DNA of 64,000 bases from Candidatus Nanosynbacter featherlites. Its GTDB lineage: Bacteria > Patescibacteriota > Saccharimonadia > Saccharimonadales > Saccharimonadaceae. The position numbers were made by a program, and so were the translations under genes. The DNA lies in contig NZ_CP040004.1 in the NCBI RefSeq assembly GCF_005697565.1, positions 682,001 through 746,000 on the forward strand, read 5' to 3'. Under the pieces are notes generated by a model. The model did no database searches. It had not been told where the DNA came from and saw nothing but the letters and a program-made list of their open reading frames with translations. Positions 30,763-46,864 of the stretch are shown in pieces; the stretch's first letter is position 1; every line of letters starts with the position of its first letter.

Positions 30763-33675
30763 CTACACCCGCCAATCATCGGGAGTTGACTTAGTATAAT
30801 CATACATACCAATCGTCTCGAAGTGTTTTTTGGCACAAGCAATTTTATGCAGTTCATTTTCACGCTCACCGCCATTCTTCGTCTCACGCACCATATATAC
30901 TTTTTCTACGCCATTGACTTCTTTGACAATTGCCCAATCTGGATTGTAGTCACCAACTGGCGTTGGTATCGTAAACTTCGACGGCAGCTTGAGGAATAGT
31001 TTGATATCTTCACGACTGTCCAAATATTCGGCAAACTTTTGTTCAGTCGCCGAATCTAGCACCAATCTATCTGTCACTGTTTTTTGTTGATTCTTAACTT
31101 GATACAGTCGATCAATAAAACGTTCGACTTCTTCATCACTATCTTTTTGGAAATTGCGAAGTTCATAATTACGCTCACCCATCTTTTCATACTCAACGCC
31201 GTCTACCACAACCTGCGCCAGTACCGACTTAATTGCACTCTTCACCATTTGCACATAGTCGTAAGGGTTTTTCAAGAATTCATGTAGCCGACCACTACCA
31301 ATCAAAATGTCAACAATTGTTCGTCGAGTGAGACCAGTGCTATCCTGTAATTCAGAGATGATATCCGGCAGTTCAAACGTTCCCGCCAAGTCACGGGTTG
31401 CTTCACCTACCATACCATCGTTATGAACGCCGCCACGCTTCAAAAGCACTCTATGCCTTTTCACCTCAATTCTTAACGGCTTAAGCTCAGGCTTGGATTT
31501 AATGGCGCCAATGGCCGCCATAATAATCTGGCCGTTATCAAATGCCACACGGTACGTCGTCTTGTGCGAGATTCGCTTCCATAATTCCTCAAGTAGCGGA
31601 CTATACAAGACTTCCTTGTTTGGACAAATCTTCTCTTTTTTACGCGCATCCTTAACAAATTTATCAATTTTACAACCCTCAATAATATCCACCACCTCGG
31701 CATGATATTTTTGCAGATCACCAGGTAAATCAAGCGTAAAGCCAATATTATTTGGCGTGAAATTCGCCAACACCCGACCCTCGTCATCAATCATACTGCG
31801 ACGCCGCAAACACTCCCAGACCTCATTTGATTTCTGATGTCCCAATGTACTGTTTGGATCGTCATGTACTGGTATCCGCGCAAATTCACTACGCCGCACA
31901 AAACCAATCTTAACACCAGCTTTCTTATATTCCTTTTGTAAATTATTAGCAAAATCACGATACGATTCATTGGCTACTACCATCAACTGATTGATCTGTT
32001 CGTCAAACACTCGTGTACCGTCCTGACGCACTGGCAAGCGCAAGCCTCGCCCAATCGTCTGTCTACGATCATTTTCACTGCCGCTCTCGCGCATCATACA
32101 AATTTGAAATACGTTCGGATTATCCCAACCCTCTTTCAGTGCCGAGTGGCTAAAAATAAACCGCACTGGATTTGCCTGATCGAGCAGTTTTTCTTTGCCT
32201 TTCATGATTAGGTCATAAGCCGACTCGTCCTGTGCATTGCCTTTGCCCTCTTTGCTGTCGACAAAGCTCGTTTTGCCGCCCTTACGCATCTCAGCAAAAT
32301 ATGCTTTTCGAACTTCACTTGAATCTTCAGGCATGATATCTTCGTAAAAACGGCTCTTTCTTCGCTCTTCCTGGTACAATTCATCAAACCAACGCGCAAA
32401 TTTTCCGTCAACCATATTACCGTCAGCATCATATTCCAAATAACTTGCCACCTTATCAACAAAAAATAGACTCAATACCTTAATTCCTTGATCGCGCAGT
32501 AAATATTCTCGCTTAATATGCTCGGCAATAGTCACGCGAATCATTTCGCGCATAACTTGATCTTCGTTACCGCCCCAATTTTCACCAAGCATCAGGACTC
32601 CTTGCGACCCAACCTCCACACTCGCTGGAACCGTCGAAATTTCATTGATGGTATAACCTTCGTAAATACTGTTACCAGTGCGAATATCCAGTTTGTCGTG
32701 ATGATTAACCCATAGTGGTTTTCGACCAACATTGCCATTTTTATCGCGAACCAACACTTCGACATAAGCTTGAAGCTTCGGCGTATTGCGCACATCGATG
32801 AGTTTGATATACGGCTTAGCATCACTGCCCTCTTGCCGAGCATTCGCCACCACGATGCTTTTCACCAACTTCTCTCGGTGAGCATCAACTGGATCGAGCC
32901 GATACATCATGTTGTATTCGTGAGTATGCGTGGCGCTATAACGTAATGTACATATTGGGTTCAGGTCATTAATCGCGCTCGTCGACAGTTCACTCTCCAT
33001 ATTTTGCGGCTCATCCATAATGACAATCGGATTAACGGCGGCCAGATATTCAATTGGGGCAATACCATTTAGCTTGTCGCGTTCTTGATGAATCACTCGC
33101 GTGTTCTTATTACCGCGAATTGCATCAATTGTCATAACCATAAACTGCGTCATAGTGCTAGTAGCATAACTCTGTACCACCTCTGGATTTTTGCCGTCGT
33201 ACACCGACGCTTCGTACGGACTATACCCCATCTCACGCGTGAAATGTTCACGCATGCCATCGAGACTACTTTTCACGCCCTCTTTGATGGCAATGCTCGG
33301 CACGATGATAATGAACTTTGAAAAACCATATAATTTCGCCATTTCCAGCGCTGTACGCAAGTATACGTACGTCTTGCCAGTGCCAGTTTCCATCTCCACG
33401 GAAAAGTTCATGCCGTCCAATTCTTTAACCGGAGCGATGCCGTTGTCGTTTTGAATTGACCGAACATTCTCCAAAATAGCATCGTCATCAAGCAGCAAAT
33501 TATTGCCAATTGCACCAATTTCGTCGAACAGCCCGACCTGGGCACCGCGCACCGATCGCGACCGCAAAACTGCATCAAACGCGTCGGCACTGTCAGGCTG
33601 ACCTTCAAAAACACTAGTGATAGAACTGATAGCTTGTAACTGGAACAGCTGACTGGAATCGTATTTAATTTTCAT
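30763..33675 (-). CDS. res: Type III restriction enzyme, Res subunit
   Basis: 970 residues. SF2 helicase with Walker A TGTGKT (98-102) and motif II DEPQ (221-224). A later GRGLRLP segment carries the motif VI arginines. The C-terminal nuclease has a PD-(D/E)xK-like pattern, NPDWAIV followed by VRETK near residue 930. It cleaves DNA as a complex with Mod (34434-36443). Its ATG overlaps the stop of the inserted gene 33672-34430 (ATGA). Confidence 0.93.
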   Translation of the reverse strand: MKIKYDSSQLFQLQAISSITSVFEGQPDSADAFDAVLRSRSVRGAQVGLFDEIGAIGNNLLLDDDAILENVRSIQNDNGIAPVKELDGMNFSVEMETGTGKTYVYLRTALEMAKLYGFSKFIIIVPSIAIKEGVKSSLDGMREHFTREMGYSPYEASVYDGKNPEVVQSYATSTMTQFMVMTIDAIRGNKNTRVIHQERDKLNGIAPIEYLAAVNPIVIMDEPQNMESELSTSAINDLNPICTLRYSATHTHEYNMMYRLDPVDAHREKLVKSIVVANARQEGSDAKPYIKLIDVRNTPKLQAYVEVLVRDKNGNVGRKPLWVNHHDKLDIRTGNSIYEGYTINEISTVPASVEVGSQGVLMLGENWGGNEDQVMREMIRVTIAEHIKREYLLRDQGIKVLSLFFVDKVASYLEYDADGNMVDGKFARWFDELYQEERRKSRFYEDIMPEDSSEVRKAYFAEMRKGGKTSFVDSKEGKGNAQDESAYDLIMKGKEKLLDQANPVRFIFSHSALKEGWDNPNVFQICMMRESGSENDRRQTIGRGLRLPVRQDGTRVFDEQINQLMVVANESYRDFANNLQKEYKKAGVKIGFVRRSEFARIPVHDDPNSTLGHQKSNEVWECLRRRSMIDDEGRVLANFTPNNIGFTLDLPGDLQKYHAEVVDIIEGCKIDKFVKDARKKEKICPNKEVLYSPLLEELWKRISHKTTYRVAFDNGQIIMAAIGAIKSKPELKPLRIEVKRHRVLLKRGGVHNDGMVGEATRDLAGTFELPDIISELQDSTGLTRRTIVDILIGSGRLHEFLKNPYDYVQMVKSAIKSVLAQVVVDGVEYEKMGERNYELRNFQKDSDEEVERFIDRLYQVKNQQKTVTDRLVLDSATEQKFAEYLDSREDIKLFLKLPSKFTIPTPVGDYNPDWAIVKEVNGVEKVYMVRETKNGGERENELHKIACAKKHFETIGMYDYTKSTPDDWRV

Positions 33676-34430
33676 GAGGCGTTATCCAGTCTATTATCTT
33701 TTAACCCATCAAGTGTTATCATACGACGCCTATCCCTTGAATCAATCTCCTTAAGAGTTTTCTTCATCGGCTTAGCGATTAGATTGTTATACACAAGCTT
33801 CAGCACATCATCTACACACTCTCCAAATTCTTCAGCACGCTCGATATTATCATACGTGTCATCCTTAAGCCAATCATATTGTAGAGTGGTTATATCCTCT
33901 ATCTCCAACTTCGTCCATTTATTTTGTATCTTTTGCATTGAAATATTTAAATCATGATACACAAGCCATAGTGCGTTATAAGCCTTGGAATTGCTGCCAA
34001 AATCAGCTCCACTCATATCTAACATCCTAGTTAGGTCAAGCGCGTTAGCTAAGAGTTTATGTGAGTTATCTAGGATACTCTTGGTAGATTCAGCCCATTC
34101 TTTGGCTAGTTGACGTTTTCGTTCATCTGAAGCAGCTTCACCCTGGAAACCACCTAAACCGTGCCACTCATTCAGCAATTCTGCAGTACGATCAATATGA
34201 AATCTTAAGCCAGTAGTGTAACTAGAGTTCTTCTTAATGATGCTATTCACCTGGTTTAGAATATCTTTATAAATGTCATAATTGGTCGACATTATTGATT
34301 CCTGGATGGCTTGATCTCTTGCAGTCTTACTAGCTTCCTTCCAACCTCGCCAAGTCATAAAAACAGCGACAAATGCAGCGATTGCAGTAGCAACCTGCGA
34401 CATATCAATTATTAACTTCCAAGTATCCAT
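33672..34430 (-). CDS. Membrane-anchored hypothetical protein inserted between mod and res
   Basis: 252 residues, not recognised. One N-terminal helix (about 8-27, QVATAIAAFVAVFMTW) is followed by a charged cytosolic alpha-helical domain, an architecture often seen in hypothetical proteins of defence islands. It starts 3 nt after the mod stop and overlaps the res start, so it is co-translated with both subunits. Mod and Res normally are adjacent, so it is an added component: cargo or a regulator. More AT-rich than res. Confidence 0.6.
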   Translation of the reverse strand: MDTWKLIIDMSQVATAIAAFVAVFMTWRGWKEASKTARDQAIQESIMSTNYDIYKDILNQVNSIIKKNSSYTTGLRFHIDRTAELLNEWHGLGGFQGEAASDERKRQLAKEWAESTKSILDNSHKLLANALDLTRMLDMSGADFGSNSKAYNALWLVYHDLNISMQKIQNKWTKLEIEDITTLQYDWLKDDTYDNIERAEEFGECVDDVLKLVYNNLIAKPMKKTLKEIDSRDRRRMITLDGLKDNRLDNAS

Positions 34431-34433
34431 ATT

Positions 34434-36443
34434 CTACGCCGTCCACAATTCTACATCATAGCTTTTACAAGTCTGGACCAGATTGGTTTTGAGCTGATTG
34501 TCGCCCTGGAAGGCGTCATCGAGAATGACAAATTTACTTGGAGCAAGGTCGGTGATAATAGTGCGTAATTGCTCCAAAGCTGGCTTAACATGCTCATTGA
34601 GATATAGCACTGGTTGGCCATCTGACGAATCGCCCTCAGTCACAACTTGATGCACATGAATTCCATCGACGTCGACGGTTTTAGTCCGCGTAGTCAGCGG
34701 CAGGCCCATTTTCAAAAGCACTTCCACCAGCAAATCTTCCTCGCTGGCATTGTCATTACTACTTTCACGCATCAGGTTCAGGCGTACCTGCAGTTCTGTC
34801 AAATCGCCCGTCGGCGTACTTTGCCACTTAGTAAAATTAGTGTCAGCTAGTTTGTAAGTGCGATATCCAACGTCCAGCGGGGTATCACGCTCAGCCAGCT
34901 TGTCAGCAAAGTCAGCCTTGATCTTTTCGCCCGCCCGGTTGATGCGTTCACGAGCAATATCACTAATCTTTTTGTAGCCAGCCTTGAACGCCTCGCTCTT
35001 TTCATCGGTCGGCTCAGGCAGCTGCACCATAATGTGCTTACGATTACCACCATCTTCGGCATTGAGTTGCATGACGGCATGAGCGGTGGTGGCAGAGCCC
35101 GCGAAGAAGTCGAGAATGATACCGTCTCCTTGTAGTCCAATCATTGCCAAAAAGTAAATTAATGTCATCGGTTTTGGAAAATCAAACAATTTAGGATTAA
35201 GATTTATTTTTGCTATATCACTAGATCCATGCGTAGTATTTATGTCGGTAATAACATCCTTAACTGTAGTGTCTCCAATGTCGCGGACTTTTGTATATAT
35301 CTTAAAATTGTCGCCTACTTTTACAAATTCTAGGTTGTAAGATTCAGATATAACTTTATCTCTACTCCATCTATACGCATGGTATTTATTGGTTCCGTTA
35401 TTATTAAGTTTGGGACTAATTTTTACATAGCCATCAAGCTGAGGTACTACATTAACATCAAATGTCTTTATATCGTTGGTATCAGGATTATAAAAAATAT
35501 CAAACACAAGATTAGGGCGCGTCTCTTCATTGAATGCGGAATTAGAGTTATACAGCTCATTCTTCAATACATAGTCACCATATTTATCTGACTGAACCTT
35601 ATAATCAAATCCTTTATATACTGACGGCATAGCTCTCTTTAGTCGTTCTGCATTAGCCCGAAATTCATTTACGAGGCTTATTTTACGAGCAAAACAAACT
35701 ATATACTCATATGTACGGGCAGCACCATGGCCAGATATCTGCCTACCCTTTAGGTTATTCACCCAGGTAAACGTGTTGACATAATTTGCTTCGCCAAAGA
35801 TCTCCAGCAGTAATTTCAATAGGTTATCATATTCATGGCCATCAATCGAAATAAATATCACCCCGTCATCCGTCAACAAATTGCGTGCCAGCTTCAAACG
35901 CGGATACATCATATTCAGCCAGTTGCTGTGATAACGGCCGGCGGTTTCAGTGTTGGTACTAATCTTTTTGTTACCCTCGTCCACCTGCTGGCTAAACTCC
36001 AGGTAGTTTTGCAAACCTTCCTTGAAATTATCCGGATAGACAAAGTCTTTGCCAGTATTGTATGGCGGATCGATGTAAATCATCTTGATACTGTTGTGAT
36101 ACTGTTTTTGCAATACTTTTAGCACCTCGAGGTTATCGCCCTCGATGAAAATGTTGTTGGTCGTATCCCAATCCTTACTCTCATCCTTGGCAGGTCGGAG
36201 CGTCGCGGTCGTCGGCTCTTGTGCCGCCCGAAGCGCCTGCTTCTTGCCCGGCCAAAACAACCCAAACCGCTCATTCGGCTCGCCAGCATCTTCCGCCAGC
36301 AGCTCCTTCAACTTGACGACATCCACCTTACCATCCGCAATCACCTCCGGAACCAGCTCCTCCAGCTTTTTGGCTAGGTCGGTGCGGAAGTTGGGAGAAG
36401 TGGATGGTAATTGATTTAAGTTTTGATTTTCATGATTCTGCAT
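34434..36443 (-). CDS. mod: Type III DNA methyltransferase, Mod subunit
   Basis: 669 residues, beta-class order: catalytic DPPY at 125-128 (in YIDPPYNTG), SAM motif DFFAGSATTAH near 440. The central, AT-rich stretch (about 200-400) is the variable target-recognition domain. The chemistry is N6-adenine methylation of an asymmetric site, not predictable here. It has its own TGA-TATAAT promoter at 36484-36489, overlapping the RT stop, so it need not be co-transcribed with the retron RT. Confidence 0.94.
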   Translation of the reverse strand: MQNHENQNLNQLPSTSPNFRTDLAKKLEELVPEVIADGKVDVVKLKELLAEDAGEPNERFGLFWPGKKQALRAAQEPTTATLRPAKDESKDWDTTNNIFIEGDNLEVLKVLQKQYHNSIKMIYIDPPYNTGKDFVYPDNFKEGLQNYLEFSQQVDEGNKKISTNTETAGRYHSNWLNMMYPRLKLARNLLTDDGVIFISIDGHEYDNLLKLLLEIFGEANYVNTFTWVNNLKGRQISGHGAARTYEYIVCFARKISLVNEFRANAERLKRAMPSVYKGFDYKVQSDKYGDYVLKNELYNSNSAFNEETRPNLVFDIFYNPDTNDIKTFDVNVVPQLDGYVKISPKLNNNGTNKYHAYRWSRDKVISESYNLEFVKVGDNFKIYTKVRDIGDTTVKDVITDINTTHGSSDIAKINLNPKLFDFPKPMTLIYFLAMIGLQGDGIILDFFAGSATTAHAVMQLNAEDGGNRKHIMVQLPEPTDEKSEAFKAGYKKISDIARERINRAGEKIKADFADKLAERDTPLDVGYRTYKLADTNFTKWQSTPTGDLTELQVRLNLMRESSNDNASEEDLLVEVLLKMGLPLTTRTKTVDVDGIHVHQVVTEGDSSDGQPVLYLNEHVKPALEQLRTIITDLAPSKFVILDDAFQGDNQLKTNLVQTCKSYDVELWTA

Positions 36444-36483
36444 ATATTTTATTCCTAATACCTCTATTTATCACTTATCTCGT

Positions 36484-36489
36484 ATTATA
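36484..36489 (-). promoter_or_regulatory. Extended -10 (TGA TATAAT) upstream of mod
   Basis: The TG of the extended box falls in the RT stop region; about 40 nt separate it from the mod ATG, which has a TAGGA element. Confidence 0.5.
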
Positions 36490-37407
36490 TCAATTTTTGC
36501 GATGCTTTTCTGCATACTCATGTATCAACCTACGGGCCTGATGCTTATTAACCTGTAGTAAAAACTGCAATCTACCCCTTAGTTTATCAGACGGTCTAGT
36601 TGAACGTTTAACCTGCCTCCGCAGACGAGAGAGCTTACTATGTCCAACTGTCAATCTACCGTCGTTAGAGATTATTACACCAGTAACACTCCGTCCTTTT
36701 TGTCCTTTTTTCACTATTCCACTGTCCTTATCAGGATTAATTCTGTAGTGCGTAGAGTTTAGTATATGGTTAATTGTCGATCTATGCCTACACAGTTTGT
36801 CGTATGGGCCGGATATAGTGATATCATCAACCCAAATTGAAAATTTTAGCCCGTTTTCTCTACAATAATCATCAACTGCACACGACATCTTCTCAACCGC
36901 AAATATAGCTATACTCATGCTGGTTGGTGAACCTTGCGGAACGTGCACCCCGTGTTGAGAATTCTCAAAAGTAGTCAAGTGTGCAAGAATATTAGCAGCT
37001 TCTTCACAATAATTAAGTTGGTATCGAAATATATGAAAGACGTCGGCATATTTGATAGAAGGAAAGAAGTCTTTAATGTCATACTTCATAAGAGCAGGCG
37101 CGGAGGCATGATATTTTGCATTATCAACGACAGAATATCCCTTTCTGCCACCCATTACTCCATATGGTAGCCTCTCCATCTGTGGCTGTAAGACCGTGAT
37201 GTTAATTTTTTTAAGAACTCTTTTAAGATATCCATGAGGAGGCTCAATGGTTCTAATCTTAACCCGACCTCCAGCCGTAATTTTCTTTTTTTCGAACGGT
37301 ACATAATAAGACTGTCTGTCGGCCAGCAGAGCCAAGAGTTCTTCCTTAGGAATTTTAAGGATATCCCTACACAATTTTGTAGTTGTAATACACTTCTGGT
37401 TCACCAT
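36490..37407 (-). CDS. Retron-type reverse transcriptase
   Basis: 305 residues, RT domain only. Retron marks: NAKYH at 96-100 (NAxxH, region X) and VTG at 241-243 (region Y). Catalytic motifs: first Asp at 110 in YDIKDFFPSI, VPQGSP at 156-161, and WVDD at 192-195 in place of the usual YADD. No maturase or endonuclease domain (against a group II intron) and no DGR-type SQ in the QG motif. The start region has only a weak GGTGA site and can fold into a stem that includes the ATG. Downstream is mod; upstream is a structured RNA region. Confidence 0.88.
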   Translation of the reverse strand: MVNQKCITTTKLCRDILKIPKEELLALLADRQSYYVPFEKKKITAGGRVKIRTIEPPHGYLKRVLKKINITVLQPQMERLPYGVMGGRKGYSVVDNAKYHASAPALMKYDIKDFFPSIKYADVFHIFRYQLNYCEEAANILAHLTTFENSQHGVHVPQGSPTSMSIAIFAVEKMSCAVDDYCRENGLKFSIWVDDITISGPYDKLCRHRSTINHILNSTHYRINPDKDSGIVKKGQKGRSVTGVIISNDGRLTVGHSKLSRLRRQVKRSTRPSDKLRGRLQFLLQVNKHQARRLIHEYAEKHRKN

Positions 37408-37455
37408 GATTCACCATTAATTATTGGGTGTTAATAGCAAGTCATGGTGCTCTAC

Positions 37456-37581
37456 CTATTTCATAAACATGAAGATCAGTAGAGCTAGTGTAGTGCTGTC
37501 GATCTGAATGGTCAGATATTTACAATCAACAATTAAGCTATTGACTTGAATTGTTAGATTTTCACAGCTGATTGCTAACAT
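37456..37581 (-). CDS. 41-aa small protein upstream of the RT
   Basis: ATG at 37581 behind a very strong AAAGGAAAGGAG site. The peptide has an internal repeat, LTIQVNS then LTIQIDS, whose codons differ mainly at third positions (for example ACA/ACC, CAA/CAG). That supports real translation. The C-terminus is hydrophobic (LALLIFMFMK). No known family recognised. It ends 48 nt before the RT start, inside the hairpin at 37449-37485. Possible roles: small toxin or effector of the retron, or a translated leader controlling RT. Confidence 0.55.
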   Translation of the reverse strand: MLAISCENLTIQVNSLIVDCKYLTIQIDSTTLALLIFMFMK

Positions 37582-37594
37582 ACCTTCTCCTTTC

Positions 37595-37660
37595 CTTTAG
37601 TTCGGCTATTTCGCCGCTGCGCATTTACGAAAAGCAAAACTAAAGAGTAGACAAATAGCC
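37595..37660 (-). promoter_or_regulatory. H-type pseudoknot before the 41-aa ORF
   Basis: GGCTATTT (37653-37660) pairs with AAATAGCC (37604-37611), and CTTTAGTT (37638-37645) with AACTAAAG (37595-37602). The order is 1-2-1'-2', two 8-bp perfect stems with a single nucleotide between the 3' arms. The last arm runs into the ribosome site at 37587-37598. Confidence 0.55.
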
Positions 37661-37878
37661 AACACTACACAACCAGGAGGCCATCCGCCAACTGAGGATA
37701 ACGCTGCGCACCTTTAATAGGTAAACTTAATTATTCCACATCAGCGTGTGCCAGGCCCGTTATGGCATCAATGACGCCGGCGTAAACGCCAACAAGCTCT
37801 TCGCAATAACGCAACAAGAAAAGGTTAGGAATGTACAGGACAGATTTGGCACAACATACCGTACCTGTCTCAATTGAT

Positions 37879-37884
37879 ATTATA
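37879..37884 (-). promoter_or_regulatory. Extended -10 (TGG TATAAT) of the retron unit
   Basis: No good -35 is visible at 17 nt, but the extended -10 is perfect. It lies just downstream (minus sense) of a terminator at 37955-37997, so the retron appears to be its own transcription unit. Confidence 0.55.
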
Positions 37885-37954
37885 CCACAACAACCTCAAT
37901 GACCGCACGAACCAGCACACCCTTCTATAACAAAAACTAAAGCGAAAGGCTTAT

Positions 37955-37997
37955 AAAAACACTCTCCAGAATATAGCAAATTTGGAGAATGCTTTTT
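37955..37997. terminator. Bidirectional terminator between nuclease operon and retron unit
   Basis: TCTCCA (37963-37968) pairs with TGGAGA (37983-37988). T-runs lie on both sides: five U after the stem on the minus strand (37955-37959) and five on the plus strand (37993-37997). Confidence 0.6.
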
Positions 37998-38039
37998 ATC
38001 GTTAAAGAAATAAGCAGCGACCACAAGACAAAGAAACCT

Positions 38040-38137
38040 GTCAATAGTTTTTTGATAAAAAGCGTATTCAATTTTTACAGATGTAAGCTGTGGATAAAAT
38101 ACGCTTATGCTATTGACAAAATACCGAAACTATTGAC
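38040..38137. repeat. CTATTGAC repeats and nested inverted repeats
   Basis: GTCAATAGTTT (38040-38050) is the exact inverse of AAACTATTGAC (38127-38137), and another CTATTGAC starts at 38110, 20 bp before the third copy. Inside lies AAGCGTATT (38060-38068) / AATACGCTT (38098-38106), a perfect 9-bp pair with 29 bp between. The layout suggests a protein-binding or recombination site. Confidence 0.5.
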
Positions 38138-38161
38138 TTAATTATAATCCTATGCTATACT
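38133..38161 (+). promoter_or_regulatory. Consensus promoter of the small plus-strand RNA
   Basis: TTGACT, 17-nt spacer ending in TGC, TATACT (38156-38161). Best complete sigma-70 promoter in the window, yet no ORF follows before the terminator at 38200-38223. Confidence 0.65.
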
Positions 38162-38167
38162 AGTTGT

Positions 38168-38223
38168 GTTAACGTGCCAGGTTGTATCGATTAACACTGA
38201 AAGCGTCCTCAAGGGCGCTTTTT
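38168..38223 (+). ncRNA. Candidate ~55-nt small RNA
   Basis: Between the consensus promoter and a terminator. GTGTTAA (38166-38172) pairs with TTAACAC (38191-38197) around an 18-nt loop; the terminator hairpin follows at once. No start codon with ribosome site inside. It lies opposite in strand to both the RT unit and the nuclease gene, whose stop is 15 nt away. Function unknown. Confidence 0.5.
38200..38223 (+). terminator. Rho-independent terminator of the small RNA
   Basis: AAAGCG-TCC-TCAA-GGG-CGCTTT followed by further T residues. Confidence 0.7.
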
Positions 38224-38237
38224 GCGTGTGAAATAAG

Positions 38238-38741
38238 TTACAATCGACGGGTAGAGTTACCATACTTCTTCTGTAAGTCGCGTTTTGTGTACGGCTCATC
38301 TATGTAGTACGCGGTAATAATCATTCTTTTTTGACCAATAACGATATTCCTTTCATCTTTCGGGCGAATAACTACAACGAAGTCGAGATCTGCAAGCCAT
38401 AAATAAAGCGTAGCGCCCTTAGGAGTTTCGGACCAAAAAGCCGTGACCTCGGGTGCAGTATAATTCTCGAGGATAGCTCGTACCCATGGTAACTTTTTAG
38501 CTCTGTCGTAGTCAATCGTACGCTCCTTAGCGCCGCGCGTTACTATATGAGTGAATCCATGTGGGTATTTACCCTCCCATATAGACCTATCTGGAATACT
38601 GTTGACATAAACCGGTGCATCATCGACCACGCATACACTGCCGTCTATAAAGTCTCTCTTGTAAAGAGCATACAGCTCATCTATGTCCTCTTGCAAAGAA
38701 CGGTTAAGTCTTAGTTCATCTGGTAGCCAATCTGGATACAT
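38238..38741 (-). CDS. Possible BECR-fold (phage barnase-EndoU-like) nuclease
   Basis: 167 residues. The C-terminal segment, with strands around LYLWLADLDFVVVIRP and a final RMIITAYYIDEPY, resembles the barnase-EndoU-ColicinE5/RelE-like domain of phage polyvalent proteins, in which such a strand and a Tyr end the fold. I am not certain. The ATG follows the DUF3800 stop directly (TAGATG), so the two are translationally coupled. AT-rich. A toxin-like nuclease would fit the defence island. Confidence 0.4.
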   Translation of the reverse strand: MYPDWLPDELRLNRSLQEDIDELYALYKRDFIDGSVCVVDDAPVYVNSIPDRSIWEGKYPHGFTHIVTRGAKERTIDYDRAKKLPWVRAILENYTAPEVTAFWSETPKGATLYLWLADLDFVVVIRPKDERNIVIGQKRMIITAYYIDEPYTKRDLQKKYGNSTRRL

Positions 38742-39461
38742 CTATCTTTTTGGCTTCCATTTGAGTATGTTTATTTTTTCCGAGCTATAGGGAGTACCGC
38801 AAGTTAACTTTTGCCCAGAACGCTGTTCTATGTGCGCTATAAGTTCTTTTTTTGCATCTGATTTTTGCTCTTCCTGCGGCTTATTTGCATACATAACTGC
38901 GCCAGTTAATATATCAGATAGCTGCAGTCCAACAACCTCATGCGACCTTACGGGCTGTGCACTCAGTGATTTACTGTTCAGACTAGATGTATTATTAAGA
39001 TAGCCTGCAAGCTTAGTAGTCCTTATACCAGACCAAGCATCTTTATAATCAAGAAAAAGGCGCATATCACCATATCTTTTTTCTGCAATAGTCCTGACAA
39101 GGATATAGGTCATTGAATAATAAAAGTCATCTCGAGTTTTATTATAGGTTTCATAATCAATAATTGATTTATCGATAACTACTGCTCGATAATTTACCTG
39201 TTCAACAGCAAAGAATACATCGACCAACTCTTTGTAATAATCAAGCTTCGCTGGACTTACTTTCGTCCATTTAATCTCTCTATGCGAAGCTATATTGTGC
39301 TTCTTTTTAACTGTTCTGATCGCATCGGTAAACAGAGAAAGCTGAGGGACACTAATCCAAAGCGCGCCGAGCACCATAGTATTACTGCTCGGATCATCAG
39401 TATGACCAGATTCGTCTATATATACATTGGTTGCGCTCAAAAGCGTTTCTATATTCTCCAT
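38742..39461 (-). CDS. DUF3800 family protein
   Basis: 239 residues from ATG 39461. VYIDESGHTDD near residue 12 is the DUF3800 hallmark (YIDESG). The family's C-terminal LQLSDILTGAV is near residue 188, and FLDYKDAW near 138 supplies another acidic pair. RNase H-like nuclease activity has been proposed for the family. The start is set by TATAAT 6 nt upstream; the frame extends 28 codons further with no support. It sits upstream of and coupled to the putative nuclease 38238-38741. Confidence 0.85.
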   Translation of the reverse strand: MENIETLLSATNVYIDESGHTDDPSSNTMVLGALWISVPQLSLFTDAIRTVKKKHNIASHREIKWTKVSPAKLDYYKELVDVFFAVEQVNYRAVVIDKSIIDYETYNKTRDDFYYSMTYILVRTIAEKRYGDMRLFLDYKDAWSGIRTTKLAGYLNNTSSLNSKSLSAQPVRSHEVVGLQLSDILTGAVMYANKPQEEQKSDAKKELIAHIEQRSGQKLTCGTPYSSEKINILKWKPKR

Positions 39462-39467
39462 ATCTAT

Positions 39468-39473
39468 ATTATA
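39468..39473 (-). promoter_or_regulatory. -10 box (TATAAT), leaderless start of the DUF3800 gene
   Basis: TATAAT followed by 6 nt and the ATG at 39461. Confidence 0.6.
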
Positions 39474-39506
39474 CAATATTCGCTTATGGATTAACTCCGC
39501 AGACTG

Positions 39507-39552
39507 ACTTACCGTGAAAATCACCAGCTTTTTACCATTTTTCACGGTAAGT
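39507..39552. repeat. Perfect 14-bp inverted repeat
   Basis: ACTTACCGTGAAAA (39507-39520) and TTTTCACGGTAAGT (39539-39552) with an 18-bp loop. It lies between the helicase stop and the DUF3800 promoter. No U-run follows on the minus strand, so it is not a standard terminator for the helicase gene. Confidence 0.65.
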
Positions 39553-39555
39553 TGC

Positions 39556-42405
39556 TTATTCTATGGTAAATTCTATGGTAAATAACCTCTCGGTAATTAC
39601 CCCGCCCTCAGACGCTTGTTGTGCTAGAGATATTTTATCGGATATTTGCTCGTCCATGCTGTCTTCAAGGTCATACTTCTCGCGGTTGAGGGCGCGGACT
39701 TTTTTGCGCAAAACTTGGACTTCGCTGGCAATTTTTAGACGAGAGGCGGCGTCGCCCGCTTGGCGCTCTTGTTTTTGCAAGTCTCTGATTTTAGCGTCAA
39801 GCTTATCGACTTTCATTTCGTATTCAACAATTTTGTCTTTATATTGACGCTCTAGCAGATCTTTTTTGTCGAGATAAACCTCAGTATTTCGGCCCTTGAC
39901 TTCTTCTTGGCGTTCGGCGATCTGCTTAGCCAGGTGATTTTGCAACACTTCACCTGGAGGGACTTTCCTGTGATTGACACTGGTAACACATAAATCAAGT
40001 ATCTTACGGCAAGTCTCTGTGTCGAGCAGTACACTATCGTCTGTCTGTGCTGATGCCAAAATGTAACTTTCGCTCATGTCTGACGAATCTATTTTCATCG
40101 GAAAGGTTACTTGCTCGACAATCATTGTTGCCCGCACGCCAACTAGCTTTTTCACCTCAGAAGCGACTCGATCAGATTGACCAATATCAAAGATAAGTTC
40201 TGCTGGAGGTGTTTGCGCAGTCTTTGCACTGTGACGTACGTATTCAGCTAAATCATCGGCGTATTTATACTGCCTGGCATGCGGTAAGCGTTCAGTTTTA
40301 TAGAAATATGTTCCGCATTCGATATCCTTTTTTGGTGCAGTTTTTAGATCAAAAACATGTTCGTTTTCAAATGACGCCTTGTCGCGCAATATATACCGCG
40401 TTAAGCCCATAAATAATCGCTCAAATCGCGTAAAAGCTTCTTCGGCTTGTTCGTCATAACGACGAAAACGATCCTGTACGTGAGGATCAAGTCCTTCAAA
40501 AATCCGGGTACGCGCCGCTTGTTGCTCAGTATCAATTTCTGACTTAAATTCTTCTTGCAGCTTTTCAAACCGTTGGCTAATCTCATCATCGGTGCGACAG
40601 GTATTCAAGATATCGCTAATTTTCTTCTCAAAGTCGAGTCCACTTTCAATCGCACCAAGCACATCATTACTAGCACCAAACGTGCTTTTAAATAAACTGA
40701 ATTTATCAGTCAACAGTTCAAGAATACGCTGCTCGGCGACATTACCTTGATTGCTAAAATTCACCACAACAACATCATATTTCTGCCCCATGCGGTGGAC
40801 ACGCCCAATTCGCTGCTCAACGCGCTGCGGATTCCATGGCAGGTCATAGTTGATTAGCATGGAGCAAAACTGCAGATTGATACCCTCGCTAGCTGCTTCG
40901 GTGGCGATCATAACCTGCATTTCGGATTCTTTGAATTTATCAATTAATGCCTTGCGGCGATCTGCTGATTCTATGCCGGTGACGACATCGGAATCTTCAT
41001 TATCCGCCAACCATTGGCGATAAATCTCGGTACTTTCCGGCGAGTTATTTTGTCCATTGAATAACACTATTTTTCCGTCATAGCCCTGCTTTTTTAGCGT
41101 TTTAGCAATGTAGTTTTGCGTCAAGGTTGACTCAGTAAAAATGATTGCTTTGCGAGCAGCTTTTGATTCCAGCGCATTAAAGCCGACATTGATCGCCTCG
41201 ACCAATTTTTCGGCTTTGACATTTTCTTTGATTGAATCGGCAAAGTCGGCGTATGATTTTAGTTCGTCGATTTCAGCCTGAAACTCGGCGCGCTCTTTGG
41301 CCGATTTGATTATATAGTCATCATAAGCACCAGTTTCCTCAAAAGCCTCAATCTCTTCGTCATTCAGATCACCCAGCTCGTCAATCAAGCCACCACGGTT
41401 ATCACGAACCTTACCCGTAGCATACTCTTCCTCCATGCGCCGTACGATATTTCGAAGTGTACTAGCAACCGCGAACGTGGACGAGCCAAGACGCTTGCGA
41501 AGAATCAGCGCTGACAAGTGACGCTGCGAAGATGCAAAGGCATACAGTTTATCGCGATGCAAATATTCGTCCACCAGCTCATATAATTTTTGCTCGTCGC
41601 CCGACGGCTCAAAACAAACAGTTTTAGCAATGCGATCAGTATATTTAATATATTTCTTGACTTCTGAGCGTAAAGTGCGTTTGGCGATTTTGCTCATGCG
41701 CGAGCGAAGATCATCGAGTGCAAACGGATGATTTGACTTAATATAGCGTTGGCGAAAAACATCAAGTTTATAAAAATATTTAGGGTCAACAACCGACACT
41801 AAGCCGTACAGTTCTTCAAGCCGATTTTGTAACGGCGTGGCTGTGAGAAGTAGCGATTTTTCGGAACCTTTGGCGATATCAGAGACCGCACTAGCGATAC
41901 CCTTTTGGTTGTTATAGAAATTTCTTAACTTATGTGCCTCATCAAGAACCAATAAATTCCAACCATTCGATAGCTTTTCTGAATGGCGATTTGCAAATTC
42001 GTAAGAACAGATATAAATACCATCTTTCTCAATAGTTCTTTTTGACTTAATCCATTTAGCATCGACAACAGTCGCCGGTAAATTAAACTTTTCCTGCAGT
42101 TCCTGCGCCCACTGCTGACGCAAACTTGATGGCGTAATAATCAGAATCTTTCGTTTGCGTTCCGAGTAGTATTGCATAATAACGATCCCCGCCTCAATGG
42201 TTTTACCGAGGCCGACTTCATCCGCCAAGATAATACCGCGAGCCATTGGCGAATTCAATGCAAACAGCGCCGCGTCAATTTGGTGCGGTGTCGGGATAAT
42301 CTGAGCATCAAACATCAGGCCCGACAACTTAGCAACGTCATCGTTAGCATAGACGCGCTCAAGCTCATGGGCAATATATTTCGCCTGATAATCAGAGGTA
42401 ATCAT
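39556..42405 (-). CDS. SNF2/RapA-type helicase
   Basis: 949 residues from the ATG at 42405 (a TTG one codon earlier is less likely). Motif I DEVGLGKT near residue 63, motif II LDEAHKLRN near 153, motif VI QRIGRVHRMGQ near 530. The C-terminal third has a long coiled coil (about 845-910). SNF2 translocases of this layout occur in DISARM- and Zorya-like loci, but no partner genes of those systems are visible. The last eight residues are a duplicated FTIE, from a 12-bp tandem repeat. Confidence 0.88.
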   Translation of the reverse strand: MITSDYQAKYIAHELERVYANDDVAKLSGLMFDAQIIPTPHQIDAALFALNSPMARGIILADEVGLGKTIEAGIVIMQYYSERKRKILIITPSSLRQQWAQELQEKFNLPATVVDAKWIKSKRTIEKDGIYICSYEFANRHSEKLSNGWNLLVLDEAHKLRNFYNNQKGIASAVSDIAKGSEKSLLLTATPLQNRLEELYGLVSVVDPKYFYKLDVFRQRYIKSNHPFALDDLRSRMSKIAKRTLRSEVKKYIKYTDRIAKTVCFEPSGDEQKLYELVDEYLHRDKLYAFASSQRHLSALILRKRLGSSTFAVASTLRNIVRRMEEEYATGKVRDNRGGLIDELGDLNDEEIEAFEETGAYDDYIIKSAKERAEFQAEIDELKSYADFADSIKENVKAEKLVEAINVGFNALESKAARKAIIFTESTLTQNYIAKTLKKQGYDGKIVLFNGQNNSPESTEIYRQWLADNEDSDVVTGIESADRRKALIDKFKESEMQVMIATEAASEGINLQFCSMLINYDLPWNPQRVEQRIGRVHRMGQKYDVVVVNFSNQGNVAEQRILELLTDKFSLFKSTFGASNDVLGAIESGLDFEKKISDILNTCRTDDEISQRFEKLQEEFKSEIDTEQQAARTRIFEGLDPHVQDRFRRYDEQAEEAFTRFERLFMGLTRYILRDKASFENEHVFDLKTAPKKDIECGTYFYKTERLPHARQYKYADDLAEYVRHSAKTAQTPPAELIFDIGQSDRVASEVKKLVGVRATMIVEQVTFPMKIDSSDMSESYILASAQTDDSVLLDTETCRKILDLCVTSVNHRKVPPGEVLQNHLAKQIAERQEEVKGRNTEVYLDKKDLLERQYKDKIVEYEMKVDKLDAKIRDLQKQERQAGDAASRLKIASEVQVLRKKVRALNREKYDLEDSMDEQISDKISLAQQASEGGVITERLFTIEFTIE
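39559..39582 (-). repeat. 12-bp tandem duplication at the helicase C-terminus
   Basis: TTTACCATAGAA occurs twice in tandem, encoding FTIE-FTIE directly before the stop. Confidence 0.8.
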
Positions 42406-42412
42406 CAAGACT

Positions 42413-42426: not shown

Positions 42427-43074
42427 CTAGTCGATGACTCGGGAGGATTGCTTGGTGATTAACAGATGAGATATAAGAGGTATGCCAAGCAACTCGCCGG
42501 CACGTTTGAGCCGATTGGTCGTTTCTATGTCAGCCTGGCTTGGTCTCATACTCCCGCTCGGATGATTATGCGCCACGATGATCGAGGCCGCGCGGTCGGC
42601 GATAGCGTCGGCGAAGACCTCGCGCGGGTGCACTAAGCTGGCAGTTAGCGTGCCGATGGTCACCACCCGCTTGGCAATCAAGCGATTCGCGCCGTCCAGC
42701 GTCAGACAGACAAAATATTCCTGCTTTTTGTCGCGAATGTCGGCCAGTAGCTCGACGGCCTTTTCTGGGCTATCGATGATTGGCTGGTCGCTGTCCAGCA
42801 AGTACCGCTGCGCCAGCTCCAAACTCGCCAGAATCACCGGGATTTTCGCTTCGCCCAAACCAACCACGCTACGCAGATCATCATACAAAACATCACCACC
42901 TTTTTGACGCAAAATTTTCAGCACTTCGCGTGCAATTTTACCGACATCCGCCTGTCTATTACCGCTACCAATCACCGCCATCAGCAGCTCCAAGTCGCTC
43001 AGCCGCGCCGTACCGTAACGCGCCAATTTCTCGCGTGGACGATCATCAGGACGGCGATCATGCATTTTCATCAT
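42427..43074 (-). CDS. radC: RadC family JAB/MPN domain protein
   Basis: 215 residues from ATG 43074, which overlaps the prenyltransferase stop (ATGA). An N-terminal HhH-like region precedes the JAB domain, whose metal motif reads IIVAHNHPSG then SQAD. RadC is widespread, its biochemical role is unsettled, and it is common beside mobile or defence loci. Here it ends the crt operon and borders the defence island. Confidence 0.93.
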   Translation of the reverse strand: MMKMHDRRPDDRPREKLARYGTARLSDLELLMAVIGSGNRQADVGKIAREVLKILRQKGGDVLYDDLRSVVGLGEAKIPVILASLELAQRYLLDSDQPIIDSPEKAVELLADIRDKKQEYFVCLTLDGANRLIAKRVVTIGTLTASLVHPREVFADAIADRAASIIVAHNHPSGSMRPSQADIETTNRLKRAGELLGIPLISHLLITKQSSRVID

Positions 43075-43904
43075 ACACCCCACACCTTCATCAATAACGT
43101 CACGGTTACCACCGCCCCAGCAACATAATTCAGCCACAAGAAACGTCGCCAGCCGGCCCGTGCATTCGCTGAATCTTTATCATGAATTCGCACGAACGGC
43201 AGCAGGTTAATAATATATAAGCCGCCTGCGACTGCCACTGGCCATGCCGCCACGCCCAGGCACGCCACCAACCCGACCGCTGCCGCGTACAGCACTATCG
43301 CCAGCCACACCGTCGCCCGCGCACCAAACACCGTGGCAATGGAGCGAATATTGGCTTCACGGTCAGGAATAATATCCTGCACCGCACCAAACGCCTGACT
43401 AGCCATACCCCAGCAGAAAAACGCGACAGCCACCAACCACCCCGCTTGTGTCGTGCCGACCAACGAATAGGCATAGAGTAATGGACCGACAAAATGTAGG
43501 CTCGACGTCACCGAATCCAACAGTGGCACTTCCTTAAACCGCAGCCCCTTCGCACTATATGCCACCACAAAAAACAACACCGCTGCCAGCACCGACGCAC
43601 TTTGCCAATTACTCAGAAACACCAACGCCACCACAAACGGCAGGCATGATAGCACCGCCGACCACACGATCAACCGATGATACTTCCGTGGTGTCACCGC
43701 TCCCTCTACGCCGCCCTTGCGGGGATTTCGCATATCCGATTCATAGTCACACACGTCATTGATGCCGTACATCAGCAGATTGTACGGGCTGAGGAAGAAT
43801 AGCGTACCAATAATCAGCCGTGCATCAACCACCCCGCCCATTACCACATAGCCCGCCGCAAACGGATAGGCCGTGTTCACCCACGACAGCGGCCGCGAGG
43901 TCAT
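43071..43904 (-). CDS. crtEb: UbiA-type prenyltransferase, lycopene elongase-like
   Basis: 277 residues with about eight membrane helices. The first Asp-rich motif is NDVCDYESD (N49-D57) and the second DIIPDREAN near 185. Position behind crtYe/crtYf matches CrtEb of Corynebacterium, which adds two C5 units to lycopene to make C50 flavuxanthin. The start ATG 43904 has TAAGG upstream; a GTG at 43928 would overlap crtYf. A different UbiA substrate is possible without the cluster context. Confidence 0.82.
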   Translation of the reverse strand: MTSRPLSWVNTAYPFAAGYVVMGGVVDARLIIGTLFFLSPYNLLMYGINDVCDYESDMRNPRKGGVEGAVTPRKYHRLIVWSAVLSCLPFVVALVFLSNWQSASVLAAVLFFVVAYSAKGLRFKEVPLLDSVTSSLHFVGPLLYAYSLVGTTQAGWLVAVAFFCWGMASQAFGAVQDIIPDREANIRSIATVFGARATVWLAIVLYAAAVGLVACLGVAAWPVAVAGGLYIINLLPFVRIHDKDSANARAGWRRFLWLNYVAGAVVTVTLLMKVWGV

Positions 43905-43914
43905 AAATAGTACC

Positions 43915-44211
43915 TTACACTTTTCTTTCACGATCCAGCCCCTTCCAAATCGCTGGCACAACTAGGCCGGCCAGTAGTGCATAAAACAAATCTTCAATCG
44001 GCGCTAACCCCACGCGTATGCCCAAAATTTTATCCGCAGGATAGGTAAACATGCCCAGGTAAATCAGTAGTGAATCAAACACAATCGTCGTCACCAGCAG
44101 TACCGCTAGCGTCGCCCACACCACACGGCCAAATGTCAATAATTTCCACCATGCCAGCACACCCAGCACCGTCGTCAAAAACAGTAGATTGAGTACTATA
44201 TATGTCGCCAT
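43915..44211 (-). CDS. crtYf: Lycopene/C50 carotenoid cyclase subunit (CrtYf type)
   Basis: 98 residues, three membrane helices. The LAPIEDLFYALLAGLVVPAIW segment is the cyclase-domain motif P-x-E(D/E)-x-F/Y. Such heterodimeric cyclases have two ~100-residue subunits encoded side by side. It overlaps crtYe by 16 nt. Confidence 0.85.
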   Translation of the reverse strand: MATYIVLNLLFLTTVLGVLAWWKLLTFGRVVWATLAVLLVTTIVFDSLLIYLGMFTYPADKILGIRVGLAPIEDLFYALLAGLVVPAIWKGLDRERKV

Positions 44212-44510
44212 CGCTTTACTCCTGCCCGGTAAATTACCAGGCTAAAATAGCTCAAAAATAGCAAGAAGAACAATTCTTCCAGCGGAAATTCTGGGAATAA
44301 GTACACGCCCAACATGTATGGCGAATGCCCGCTGAGAAAGATGCCGAGCGAAATACCACAAATATCCCACACGATAAACACGCTGGTCATAATGAGCACC
44401 GTTAATACCGTACGGCGAGCATCATACCAGTAAGCTAGCCTATACCGCCAGTCCAGCACTATCATACCCGCAAAACTAAATATAATTCCCGCTAAGTACA
44501 GCCAACTCAT
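44196..44510 (-). CDS. crtYe: Lycopene/C50 carotenoid cyclase subunit (CrtYe type)
   Basis: 104 residues, three membrane helices, with the motif FPLEELFFLLFLSYFSL. Partner of the crtYf product. Together the two close the epsilon-type rings in C50 carotenoid synthesis in actinobacteria. The start overlaps the crtI stop (ATGA). Confidence 0.85.
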   Translation of the reverse strand: MSWLYLAGIIFSFAGMIVLDWRYRLAYWYDARRTVLTVLIMTSVFIVWDICGISLGIFLSGHSPYMLGVYLFPEFPLEELFFLLFLSYFSLVIYRAGVKRWRHI

Positions 44511-46021
44511 ATATCCTCCTTCGTGAGCGGTCCACGGCGGCGGTTTCCTGTGATGCGCTTGTAGGTCAGCTGGGCGCTAATCAGGCACATCGGCAAACCG
44601 ATTCCCGGCAATGTTCCCGCGCCAACATAATACAGATTTGACACTTTTTTGCTGCGATTACGCGTACGGAACATAACGCTTTGGCTGAGCAAGTGCGACT
44701 CGCCACCAAAGGCGTTGTACTGCCAGGCATTAAATTGCTCACTAAACTGCTCTGGGCTGTAGATAAGCCGAGAAACAATTCGCTTTGGTAAATCTGATTC
44801 GCCGCTCATCTCGGTAAGAATCTTGACGATCTTCTTCACACACGCCGCTTCTTGCTGTGGCGTCAGCGTCACGCCTGCTGGTAGTGGCAATAGCACAAAC
44901 AGATTTTCATGCTCTGGCGGAGCGAGCGATGGGTCAGTTTTAGTTGGATTACACACATAAAGCGACGCATGTTCCGGCACGGTATGGGTTTCGTAAATCG
45001 CCGCAAAGTTTTCGCGCCACTTGTTCACAAAGTAGAGATTATGGTGCTGCAAATTTGGTAGCTTTCCTTTGATGCCCAGCGCAACTAGCAACGCGCCTGG
45101 CCCCGGCTGGCGTTTTTGCCAATACTTTTCGGGGTAGCTTTGGGCAGCTGGCGGCAATAATTTGGTTTCAGTATGATGAATATCAGCTGCCGAAATTACC
45201 AAGTCAGCCGCAATGCGTTCGCCATTCATCAGTTCAATACCTGTGGCCTGATGACCATCCAGCACAATCTGCTTCACCGGTGAGTTATAGTGATATGCCA
45301 CGCCCAAACTTCTTCCCAACCGCTCCATGCTGTTCACCAATTCCAACATTCCACGCCGCGGATAATACACACCGCTTCGAAAATCGAGATGACTCATCAG
45401 GCTATAGACGGCTGGGGCTTGAAACGGGCTGGAACCCAAAAATACCATATGATATTCGAGCAATTGTTTAAGCCGAAGATCTCGAAACCAGCGGCTAACA
45501 TGTGCGTCCAGTGTCCGCCACACTAGCGGCAACATGGTTGGTAGCTGGCGCAAAAGTGGCCACTGTAACACATCACTAACCCGCGTGAAATTATTATATA
45601 GCGCGTGCTTCACCGCCACCTCATATATCTGGCTACTGCGCGTGACATAGCGCTGCAATTTTTTGCCCGCACCAGGCTCAATGGCTTCAAAGGTTGTCAT
45701 GTCTTTATCAACATCACCCTGAATGATCAGTGGATCATAGCCTTCGCTCCACACTTTGTAGCCGGGCGAAAATCGCACCAAGTCGAGCTCTGTTTTGGCT
45801 GATCGACCAAACAATTGATAATACTGCTCAAAAATCTCTGGCATCAAATACCATGACGGGCCAAGATCAAAGGTAAATCCGTTTTGCTTGACCACCTGAA
45901 TCCGGCCACCGGCTGACGGGTTCTTCTCGTACACCGCCACCTCGTACCCTGCTTTCGCCAGCAAATTTGCCAGCGCCAGCCCGCCATATCCTGCGCCAAT
46001 AATCACCGCTTTCTTCTTCAT
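44507..46021 (-). CDS. crtI: Phytoene desaturase
   Basis: 504 residues. N-terminal FAD dinucleotide motif GAGYGGLALANLLAKAG (8-24) followed by YEKN and GGRI. The C-terminal GAGTLPGIGLPMCLIS block is the CrtI signature. It desaturates phytoene, probably to lycopene given the cyclases downstream. The start overlaps the crtB stop by 4 nt. Confidence 0.94.
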   Translation of the reverse strand: MKKKAVIIGAGYGGLALANLLAKAGYEVAVYEKNPSAGGRIQVVKQNGFTFDLGPSWYLMPEIFEQYYQLFGRSAKTELDLVRFSPGYKVWSEGYDPLIIQGDVDKDMTTFEAIEPGAGKKLQRYVTRSSQIYEVAVKHALYNNFTRVSDVLQWPLLRQLPTMLPLVWRTLDAHVSRWFRDLRLKQLLEYHMVFLGSSPFQAPAVYSLMSHLDFRSGVYYPRRGMLELVNSMERLGRSLGVAYHYNSPVKQIVLDGHQATGIELMNGERIAADLVISAADIHHTETKLLPPAAQSYPEKYWQKRQPGPGALLVALGIKGKLPNLQHHNLYFVNKWRENFAAIYETHTVPEHASLYVCNPTKTDPSLAPPEHENLFVLLPLPAGVTLTPQQEAACVKKIVKILTEMSGESDLPKRIVSRLIYSPEQFSEQFNAWQYNAFGGESHLLSQSVMFRTRNRSKKVSNLYYVGAGTLPGIGLPMCLISAQLTYKRITGNRRRGPLTKEDI

Positions 46022-46836
46022 AATCCCACCGCTCCTCGCGCGAATAGTACAGACTTCACACTGTTCGGCACCCGAATGCGCCGCGCTTTAAGATCGGCAA
46101 CTGATGCATTCTGCAGCCGCTGAAACAGTGCTTCATAATATATTACACTGGTATGCACTGCTCGGCGGGCAGTTGACGGAAGTTGCTGCACACTCGCTTT
46201 GGCTACGGCAAAATCCGCCGCAATATCCGCTTCGATGGTCCGCTTGCTGGCATCACTAAACGATAGGTAATCAACGCCCGGAAAATACATCCGCCCCAAA
46301 ACTTCGTGATCTGCCTTCATGTCACGCAAAAAATTCACTTTTTGGTAGGCCGCACCCAAATGGCTGGCACCTTCACGCAACTGTTCATACTGAGCCGCAT
46401 CGCCTTCAACGAACACCTTGAGACACATCAACCCCACCACTTCCGCCGAGCCGTAAATATAGCGTCGGTATGCCGCTTCATCATATTCCATGGTCGTAAT
46501 ATCCATCCGCATACTTGCAAAAAATGGGGAAATTAGCTCTCGCTCGATACCGTACTTTTGGGCCGTGAGAGCAAAAGCATGAACGATTGGATTGGTCGAA
46601 TAGCCCTGCTTGCACGCCTGGTAAACCACTGCTTCAAAGTTGTCGAGCTGAGCCATCGCATCATCGCCACGGTACGTATCGACAATTTCATCCACTAGCC
46701 GCACCATGCCATAGATCGCGTAAATATGCGGCCGAATGCGTGACGCCAACAGCCAGCTGCTCGTCGAAAACGAAGTCGAGTAGCGCCGCATTAATCGCTC
46801 TGCCAGCTCATAGCTTACCTGCTGGTATAGCTCCAT
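46018..46836 (-). CDS. crtB: Phytoene synthase
   Basis: 272 residues from ATG 46836, preferred because AAGGA lies 11 nt upstream; the ATG at 46848 has AAGG abutting it. The first Asp-rich motif DEIVD is near 48-52 and the second near 155-165 (NFLRDMKAD). It condenses two GGPP to phytoene. First gene of the crt operon. A GGTATGAT box lies about 20 nt upstream. No GGPP synthase (crtE) is in the window. Confidence 0.92.
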   Translation of the reverse strand: MELYQQVSYELAERLMRRYSTSFSTSSWLLASRIRPHIYAIYGMVRLVDEIVDTYRGDDAMAQLDNFEAVVYQACKQGYSTNPIVHAFALTAQKYGIERELISPFFASMRMDITTMEYDEAAYRRYIYGSAEVVGLMCLKVFVEGDAAQYEQLREGASHLGAAYQKVNFLRDMKADHEVLGRMYFPGVDYLSFSDASKRTIEADIAADFAVAKASVQQLPSTARRAVHTSVIYYEALFQRLQNASVADLKARRIRVPNSVKSVLFARGAVGL

Positions 46837-46864
46837 CAACAGCACCATCCTTGCATGATACTAA

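Follow-up and report, generated by a model that had tools for sequence, protein, structure and literature searches.

In the present study, we describe a locus of Candidatus Nanosynbacter featherlites that is probably a compact type VI-like retron without an HTH gene, in which the retron complex, including msDNA made by its reverse transcriptase (RT), would restrain a 41-aa peptide serving as the effector or an auxiliary protein. The identity of the RT, the structured leader, and the gene order, in which no HTH gene was found, are directly supported. Type VI retrons are already known, and this streamlined form is without their usual DNA-binding partner. All coordinates refer to the window, the whole stretch of 64,000 nucleotides that was analyzed (contig NZ_CP040004.1, positions 682,001 to 746,000 of the forward strand).

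Organization of the locus

The locus comprises the following features.

36490-37407, minus strand: retron-type RT of 305 aa, type VI-like (PADLOC, tree, AlphaFold2, PDB fold matches)
37403-37485, minus strand: two predicted hairpins, one at 37485-37449 and one at 37448-37403, the latter spanning the RT start codon (z -5.56, 0 of 200 shuffles)
37456-37581, minus strand: 41-aa ORF, a candidate small auxiliary or effector peptide (kept in relatives; no family match)
37578-37834, minus strand: candidate msr-msd RNA of ~257 nt
37578-37635, minus strand: candidate a2 arm, which overlaps the translation start signals (ribosome site, start codon) of the 41-aa ORF
37636-37763, minus strand: candidate msd region with an uncertain fold (mean p of the helices 0.08-0.34)
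37764-37790, minus strand: two tandem short stem-loops, msr-like (GGCG/CGCC at p 0.98; GGCGUC/GAUGCC at p 0.81)
37796-37834, minus strand: candidate a1 arm, pairing with 37635-37578 (mean p 0.87-0.95)
37879-37887, minus strand: extended -10-like motif TGGTATAAT (TGG-TATAAT), read from the sequence
37955-37996, no strand assigned: terminator-like hairpin upstream of the retron (z -4.73)

It is plausible that the retron forms its own transcription unit. The original prediction had placed an extended -10 in front of the leader and a bidirectional terminator upstream of it, and each of these claims stands in part. The literal motif is present at 37887-37879, but because the consensus -35/-10 scan lists no promoter there, which counts against the retron reading, we regard this stretch as a motif only. 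The hairpin at 37955-37996 is strong and has A- and T-rich flanks, whereas the strict terminator scan of 36300-38400 returned none. Downstream, the gene for a type III methylase starts 46 nt after the RT gene on the same strand, and a TGA-TATAAT motif lies over the RT stop codon (36492-36484). As a separate observation, a perfect 11-nt inverted repeat (GTCAATAGTTT/AAACTATTGAC) is located within 38040-38137, and TATTGAC copies related to it occur at 38105-38117 and 37533-37547.

The reverse transcriptase

That the 305-aa protein is a retron-type RT was borne out by family models, the tree, the form of the active site, and the predicted fold. The marks NAxxH, VTG, and WVDD, which had been claimed for this protein, were all read in it, as NAKYH, SVTG, and WVDD. 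The top PADLOC model was RT_VI (203.7 bits), 61 bits ahead of the runner-up, III-A (142.4 bits), and the best RT_VI scores in the four genomes around L001-L004 were 279, 221.1, 216.9, and 205.9. The nearest NCBIfam model, that of retron St85, reached 145.6 bits, under its cut-off of 235. When the AlphaFold2 model of the RT (pLDDT 93.7) was compared with the PDB, ranks 1-16 were all retron RTs (query TM 0.61-0.77), and DRT9 followed at rank 17. Ec86 ranked first as the closest fold (7v9x and 7v9u; query TM 0.72-0.73, 26% identity), was also the best solved relative by sequence profile (112.4 bits), and belongs to another type of retron, whose effector differs.

A protein search with the RT gave 94 matches, and since these split into 59 at 47% identity or above and 35 at 35% or below, the RT family is regarded as a distinct clade. 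The clade is deep and consists of metagenomic RTs; one of them, P0049, bears the name Candidatus Saccharimonadales, which is consistent with a patescibacterial origin. Alignment A1 took 40 of the 59 close matches, and a tree of 97 RTs took 14 of those 40 together with 10 of the 35 distant matches. An ORF that matched the A1 profile was present in 80 of the 100 loci, and 72 of these entered the tree; left out were L001, L002, and L004, which duplicate L012, L009, and L010 by position, L003 and L011, in which the RT is broken, L005 and L006, two weak loci at one place, and the fragment L065.

Placement of the RT in a phylogeny had been proposed as a check on the original prediction, and the resulting tree suggests that the window RT groups inside or beside the type VI retrons. 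The window RT and its 14 close relatives form a clade with support of 100/100, which is nested in a 47-row group (97/81) together with 27 loci of the type VI kind, a group named only after the tree had been seen, and five distant proteins (P0060, P0061, P0065, P0066, and P0078). The best PADLOC model was RT_VI for P0060 and P0061 and III-A for P0065 and P0066. The tree does not separate a position inside type VI from one beside it (p-AU 0.271 with the 27 and 15 rows held together, 0.386 with the 27 alone).

An active site of the form [VI]DD, as in the window, is found in type VI reference loci. It occurs in 24 of the 27 type VI-group loci versus 2 of the 45 other loci (Fisher p 1e-13), in all 15 rows of the window clade, and in four of the ten distant proteins; YADD is the form in 37 of the 45 other loci. 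Because [VI]DD is common in the type VI group and rare elsewhere among the loci, WVDD fits type VI. The NAxxH and VTG marks, the fold, and the phylogeny are those of a retron-type RT, and the 61-bit lead of RT_VI, the position inside or beside type VI in the tree, and the [VI]DD form point to a type VI RT.

Scans of viral contigs with the RT, its alignment, and two leader patterns found no relative. A scan of genome contigs confirmed five distant loci only, and more genome searches for type VI loci added nothing new. In alignment A1, 32 of the 41 rows have Val as the second RT residue (an MV start), though the residues that follow differ in number, and this may perhaps reflect an RNA constraint on the start codon.

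Gene order in comparison with type VI retrons

The scheme of retron types, including type VI, reportedly goes back to Mestre et al. in 2020, who are cited in PMC8541194. According to that source, the RT of a type VI retron is accompanied by a gene for a DNA-binding protein and by a small auxiliary gene (PMC8541194). The usual order is RNA, small gene, XRE-HTH gene, and RT, and a published Klebsiella phage locus has a small ORF (51 aa), an XRE regulator, and the RT in that order. The window has the same order minus the HTH gene. It shares the RT model with type VI retrons such as those of the Klebsiella phage ST147-VIM1phi7.1 (L101) and the Shewanella phage MuM16-1 (L102), and in L101 the RT is likewise preceded by a non-coding stretch and a small gene. 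Unlike these retrons, the window has no XRE-HTH gene between the small gene and the RT, its 41-aa peptide matches just near-identical copies, and its RT belongs to a deep, separate clade.

An XRE-HTH gene precedes the RT in 20 of the 27 type VI-group loci and in none of the 45 others, a count that includes the 13 loci that seeded the HTH profile and becomes 7 of 14 when taken independently. The window has no such gene just upstream of the RT: the XRE-HTH profile matched none of the stop-to-stop frames of at least 40 aa across the window at E 0.01, and PADLOC gave no match for six leader ORFs. Seven of the 27 type VI-group loci also have no HTH gene. In six of these (L015, L019, L049, L051, L053, and L073), a small ORF lies straight before the RT, as in the window, but it is longer (57-76 aa), the RTs belong to other branches of the group, and the active sites of L049 and L051 are LLDD, in contrast to WVDD in the window. 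At the seventh, L057, the small-ORF candidate is weak (29 aa). The absence of a standard effector, as originally claimed, therefore needs qualification: the XRE-HTH partner was not found, but the claim is only partly right because the 41-aa gene sits where the type VI small gene sits.

Concerning the small proteins of the HTH-bearing loci, we observed that those preceding the XRE gene in L014, L016, L017, L018, L020, L021, and L029, all from one phylum, have, as judged by eye, an SLS-EE-like motif in the middle and a hydrophobic C-terminus; they are perhaps one family.

The 41-aa ORF and the neighboring defense genes

In line with the claim that the leader encodes a small protein, it contains a 41-aa ORF with AAAGGAG located 5 nt before its ATG; the ORF starts inside the end of a2. 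Besides its own record, its relatives are P0096 (98%), P0097 (90%), and P0098 (27 aa), the last of which has one 14-residue unit fewer and an identical last 19 residues. The longest contig of P0098 (18979) does not occur in the list of longest contigs of the RT clusters, so the link of this small ORF to an RT is only putative, which counts against the retron reading. The ORF occupies the position of the small auxiliary gene and is kept in three relatives; homology to other small proteins was not detected, family models gave no match, and the search found only the near relatives.

The RT locus lies in an antiviral defense island and is flanked on either side by defense genes identified by PADLOC, as listed below.

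30763-33675, minus strand: type III restriction enzyme (PADLOC REase_III, 878 bits)
34434-36443, minus strand: type III DNA methyltransferase (PADLOC MTase_III, 583.3 bits)
38238-42408, minus strand: PDC-M04B, PDC-M04A (DUF3800), and a DrmD-like SNF2 helicase (PADLOC, family models)

These neighbors are relevant to an unlikely alternative, namely that the retron is real and the 41-aa ORF is a leader peptide or a chance ORF, the effector being a neighbor (PDC-M04 or the type III restriction-modification system) or an unlinked gene. In line with this alternative, defense genes lie on both sides, the peptide has no family matches, and the hydropathy of its tail does not exceed the null, since equally hydrophobic tails occur in 9% of 1847 null ORFs and in 2398 of 5000 shuffles of its own composition. 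On the other hand, AAAGGAG precedes the ATG by 5 nt, and the last 19 residues and the stop are kept in the three relatives, even in the one that is a 14-residue unit shorter. Moreover, a candidate small ORF lies in a like position at 26 of the 27 type VI-group loci, where each was chosen as the most hydrophobic candidate and that of L057 is weak.

Several further observations were made on the surrounding genes. PDC-M04A and PDC-M04B, a candidate defense pair, come right after the DrmD-like SNF2 helicase, on the same strand and tightly packed. A 252-aa protein with a hydrophobic N-terminus (33672-34430, minus strand), encoded between the genes for the type III methylase and the restriction enzyme, had no match in PADLOC, Pfam, or NCBIfam. 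At 43071-46848 (minus strand), a run of genes for a UbiA prenyltransferase, a 104-aa protein without a Pfam match, a protein of the flavin amine-oxidase family, and a squalene/phytoene synthase looks, from its gene content, like a pathway for carotenoid synthesis.

The leader RNA

The leader extends from 37872, its assumed start, to 37408 (465 nt), and folding, which had been suggested as a check, showed it to be structured (z -5.10 over the 484 nt of 37390-37873, 0 of 100 shuffles). The original prediction regarded the leader as longer than is typical; the length of 465 nt stands, but it is better read as an RNA of ~257 nt and a separate 41-aa gene. The 258-nt part at 37577-37834 gave a z of -4.65 (20 shuffles), a value reached by none of the 426 control windows taken in steps of 300 nt along the two strands of the 64 kb, with the reservation that its borders were picked after seeing the fold, which favors its z over controls with fixed borders. 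Retron RNAs have the layout a1, msr, msd, a2. The predicted fold of the leader matches this layout, and the msr-msd is a candidate only. An alternative fold with a local hairpin at 37646-37595 was 3.6 kcal/mol worse. The comparison with covariance models, which had also been suggested as a check, counts against a retron RNA: Rfam gave nothing at the gathering score in the leader, and four sub-threshold matches were to unrelated families, none of them a retron. The leaders of 19 distant type VI loci were folded and looked too divergent for alignment. A hairpin before the ribosome site of the small gene, which seemed by eye to recur in these leaders, was set aside as evidence: z was below -2 in 6 of 21 loci and -1.38 in the window, and four of the 21 loci (L010, L016, L018, and L046) had been cut at the wrong start.

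The start codons of both genes are paired in the predicted folds. For the 41-aa ORF, AAAGG is paired at p 0.57-1.0 and AUG at p 0.55-0.99, and the A-G-A after AAAGG is mostly free (p 0.03-0.40); the AUG of the RT is paired at p 1.0 once the bases downstream of it are included. This predicted pairing therefore suggests that the translation of the 41-aa ORF and the RT is limited by RNA structure.

Retron RTs are known to use RNA that is encoded beside them. A reading on which the leader is instead a regulatory 5' UTR or attenuator of the 41-aa ORF, the RT, and perhaps the methylase, with the RT acting on another RNA, appears rather improbable. It would account for the hairpins over both start codons, for the poor definition of the msd part, with its low mean pairing, and for the a1/a2 duplex, which is not significant by itself (70 of 1000 shuffles equal the duplex of the 5' and 3' 90 nt, a result that counts against a retron RNA). 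It does not fit well with an RT of the retron kind or with the presence of the a1, msr, msd, and a2 layout.

Another reading, to which we give little weight, is that in this lineage the retron RNA itself took on the role of an antitoxin and the HTH gene was shed: the a1/a2 helix in the template of the msDNA would also occlude the ribosome site of the 41-aa effector along with its start codon, and loss of the RNA complex in infection would directly release translation of the effector.

Proposed mechanism and significance

Returning to the reading of a compact retron that restrains its peptide, which we consider probable, we infer the production of msDNA, a function for the peptide, and a role in defense as follows. 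The leader would be transcribed as one RNA, the 5' part of which (37834-37578) would be the msr-msd. The RT would bind the msr-msd and reverse-transcribe the msd (37763-37636) into msDNA. Immediately downstream of a2, the leader encodes the 41-aa peptide, which is likely to be the effector or an auxiliary protein, and, by analogy with other retrons, the complex of RT, RNA, and msDNA would keep the peptide in check until a phage disturbs the complex, whereupon the freed peptide would harm the infected cell. Translation of both genes is predicted to be limited, that of the peptide by the a1/a2 pairing, which covers its ribosome site and start codon, and that of the RT by the hairpin over its start codon.

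It is very improbable that the locus is a decayed type VI retron that has lost its HTH gene, and perhaps its effector, and retains an RT and an RNA of little or no function. Although no HTH gene was found in the frames of the window and the known kin of the peptide are limited to near-identical copies, the RT, which has a full active site, is intact, the 59 of 94 protein matches at 47% identity or above keep the family alive, and loci without an HTH gene recur (7 of 27 reference loci).

Saccharibacteria are ultra-small epibionts, and, to our knowledge, their phage defenses have been little described. In a literature search of limited scope on retrons in Saccharibacteria, Patescibacteria, TM7, and the candidate phyla radiation, none of the titles concerned such a retron. 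If the proposed reading is true, the locus, with only an RNA, a tiny gene, and an RT, would be among the smallest forms of type VI retrons. It would also make the question of the type VI effector directly testable, in that the HTH protein would not be required, leaving the small peptide as the candidate.
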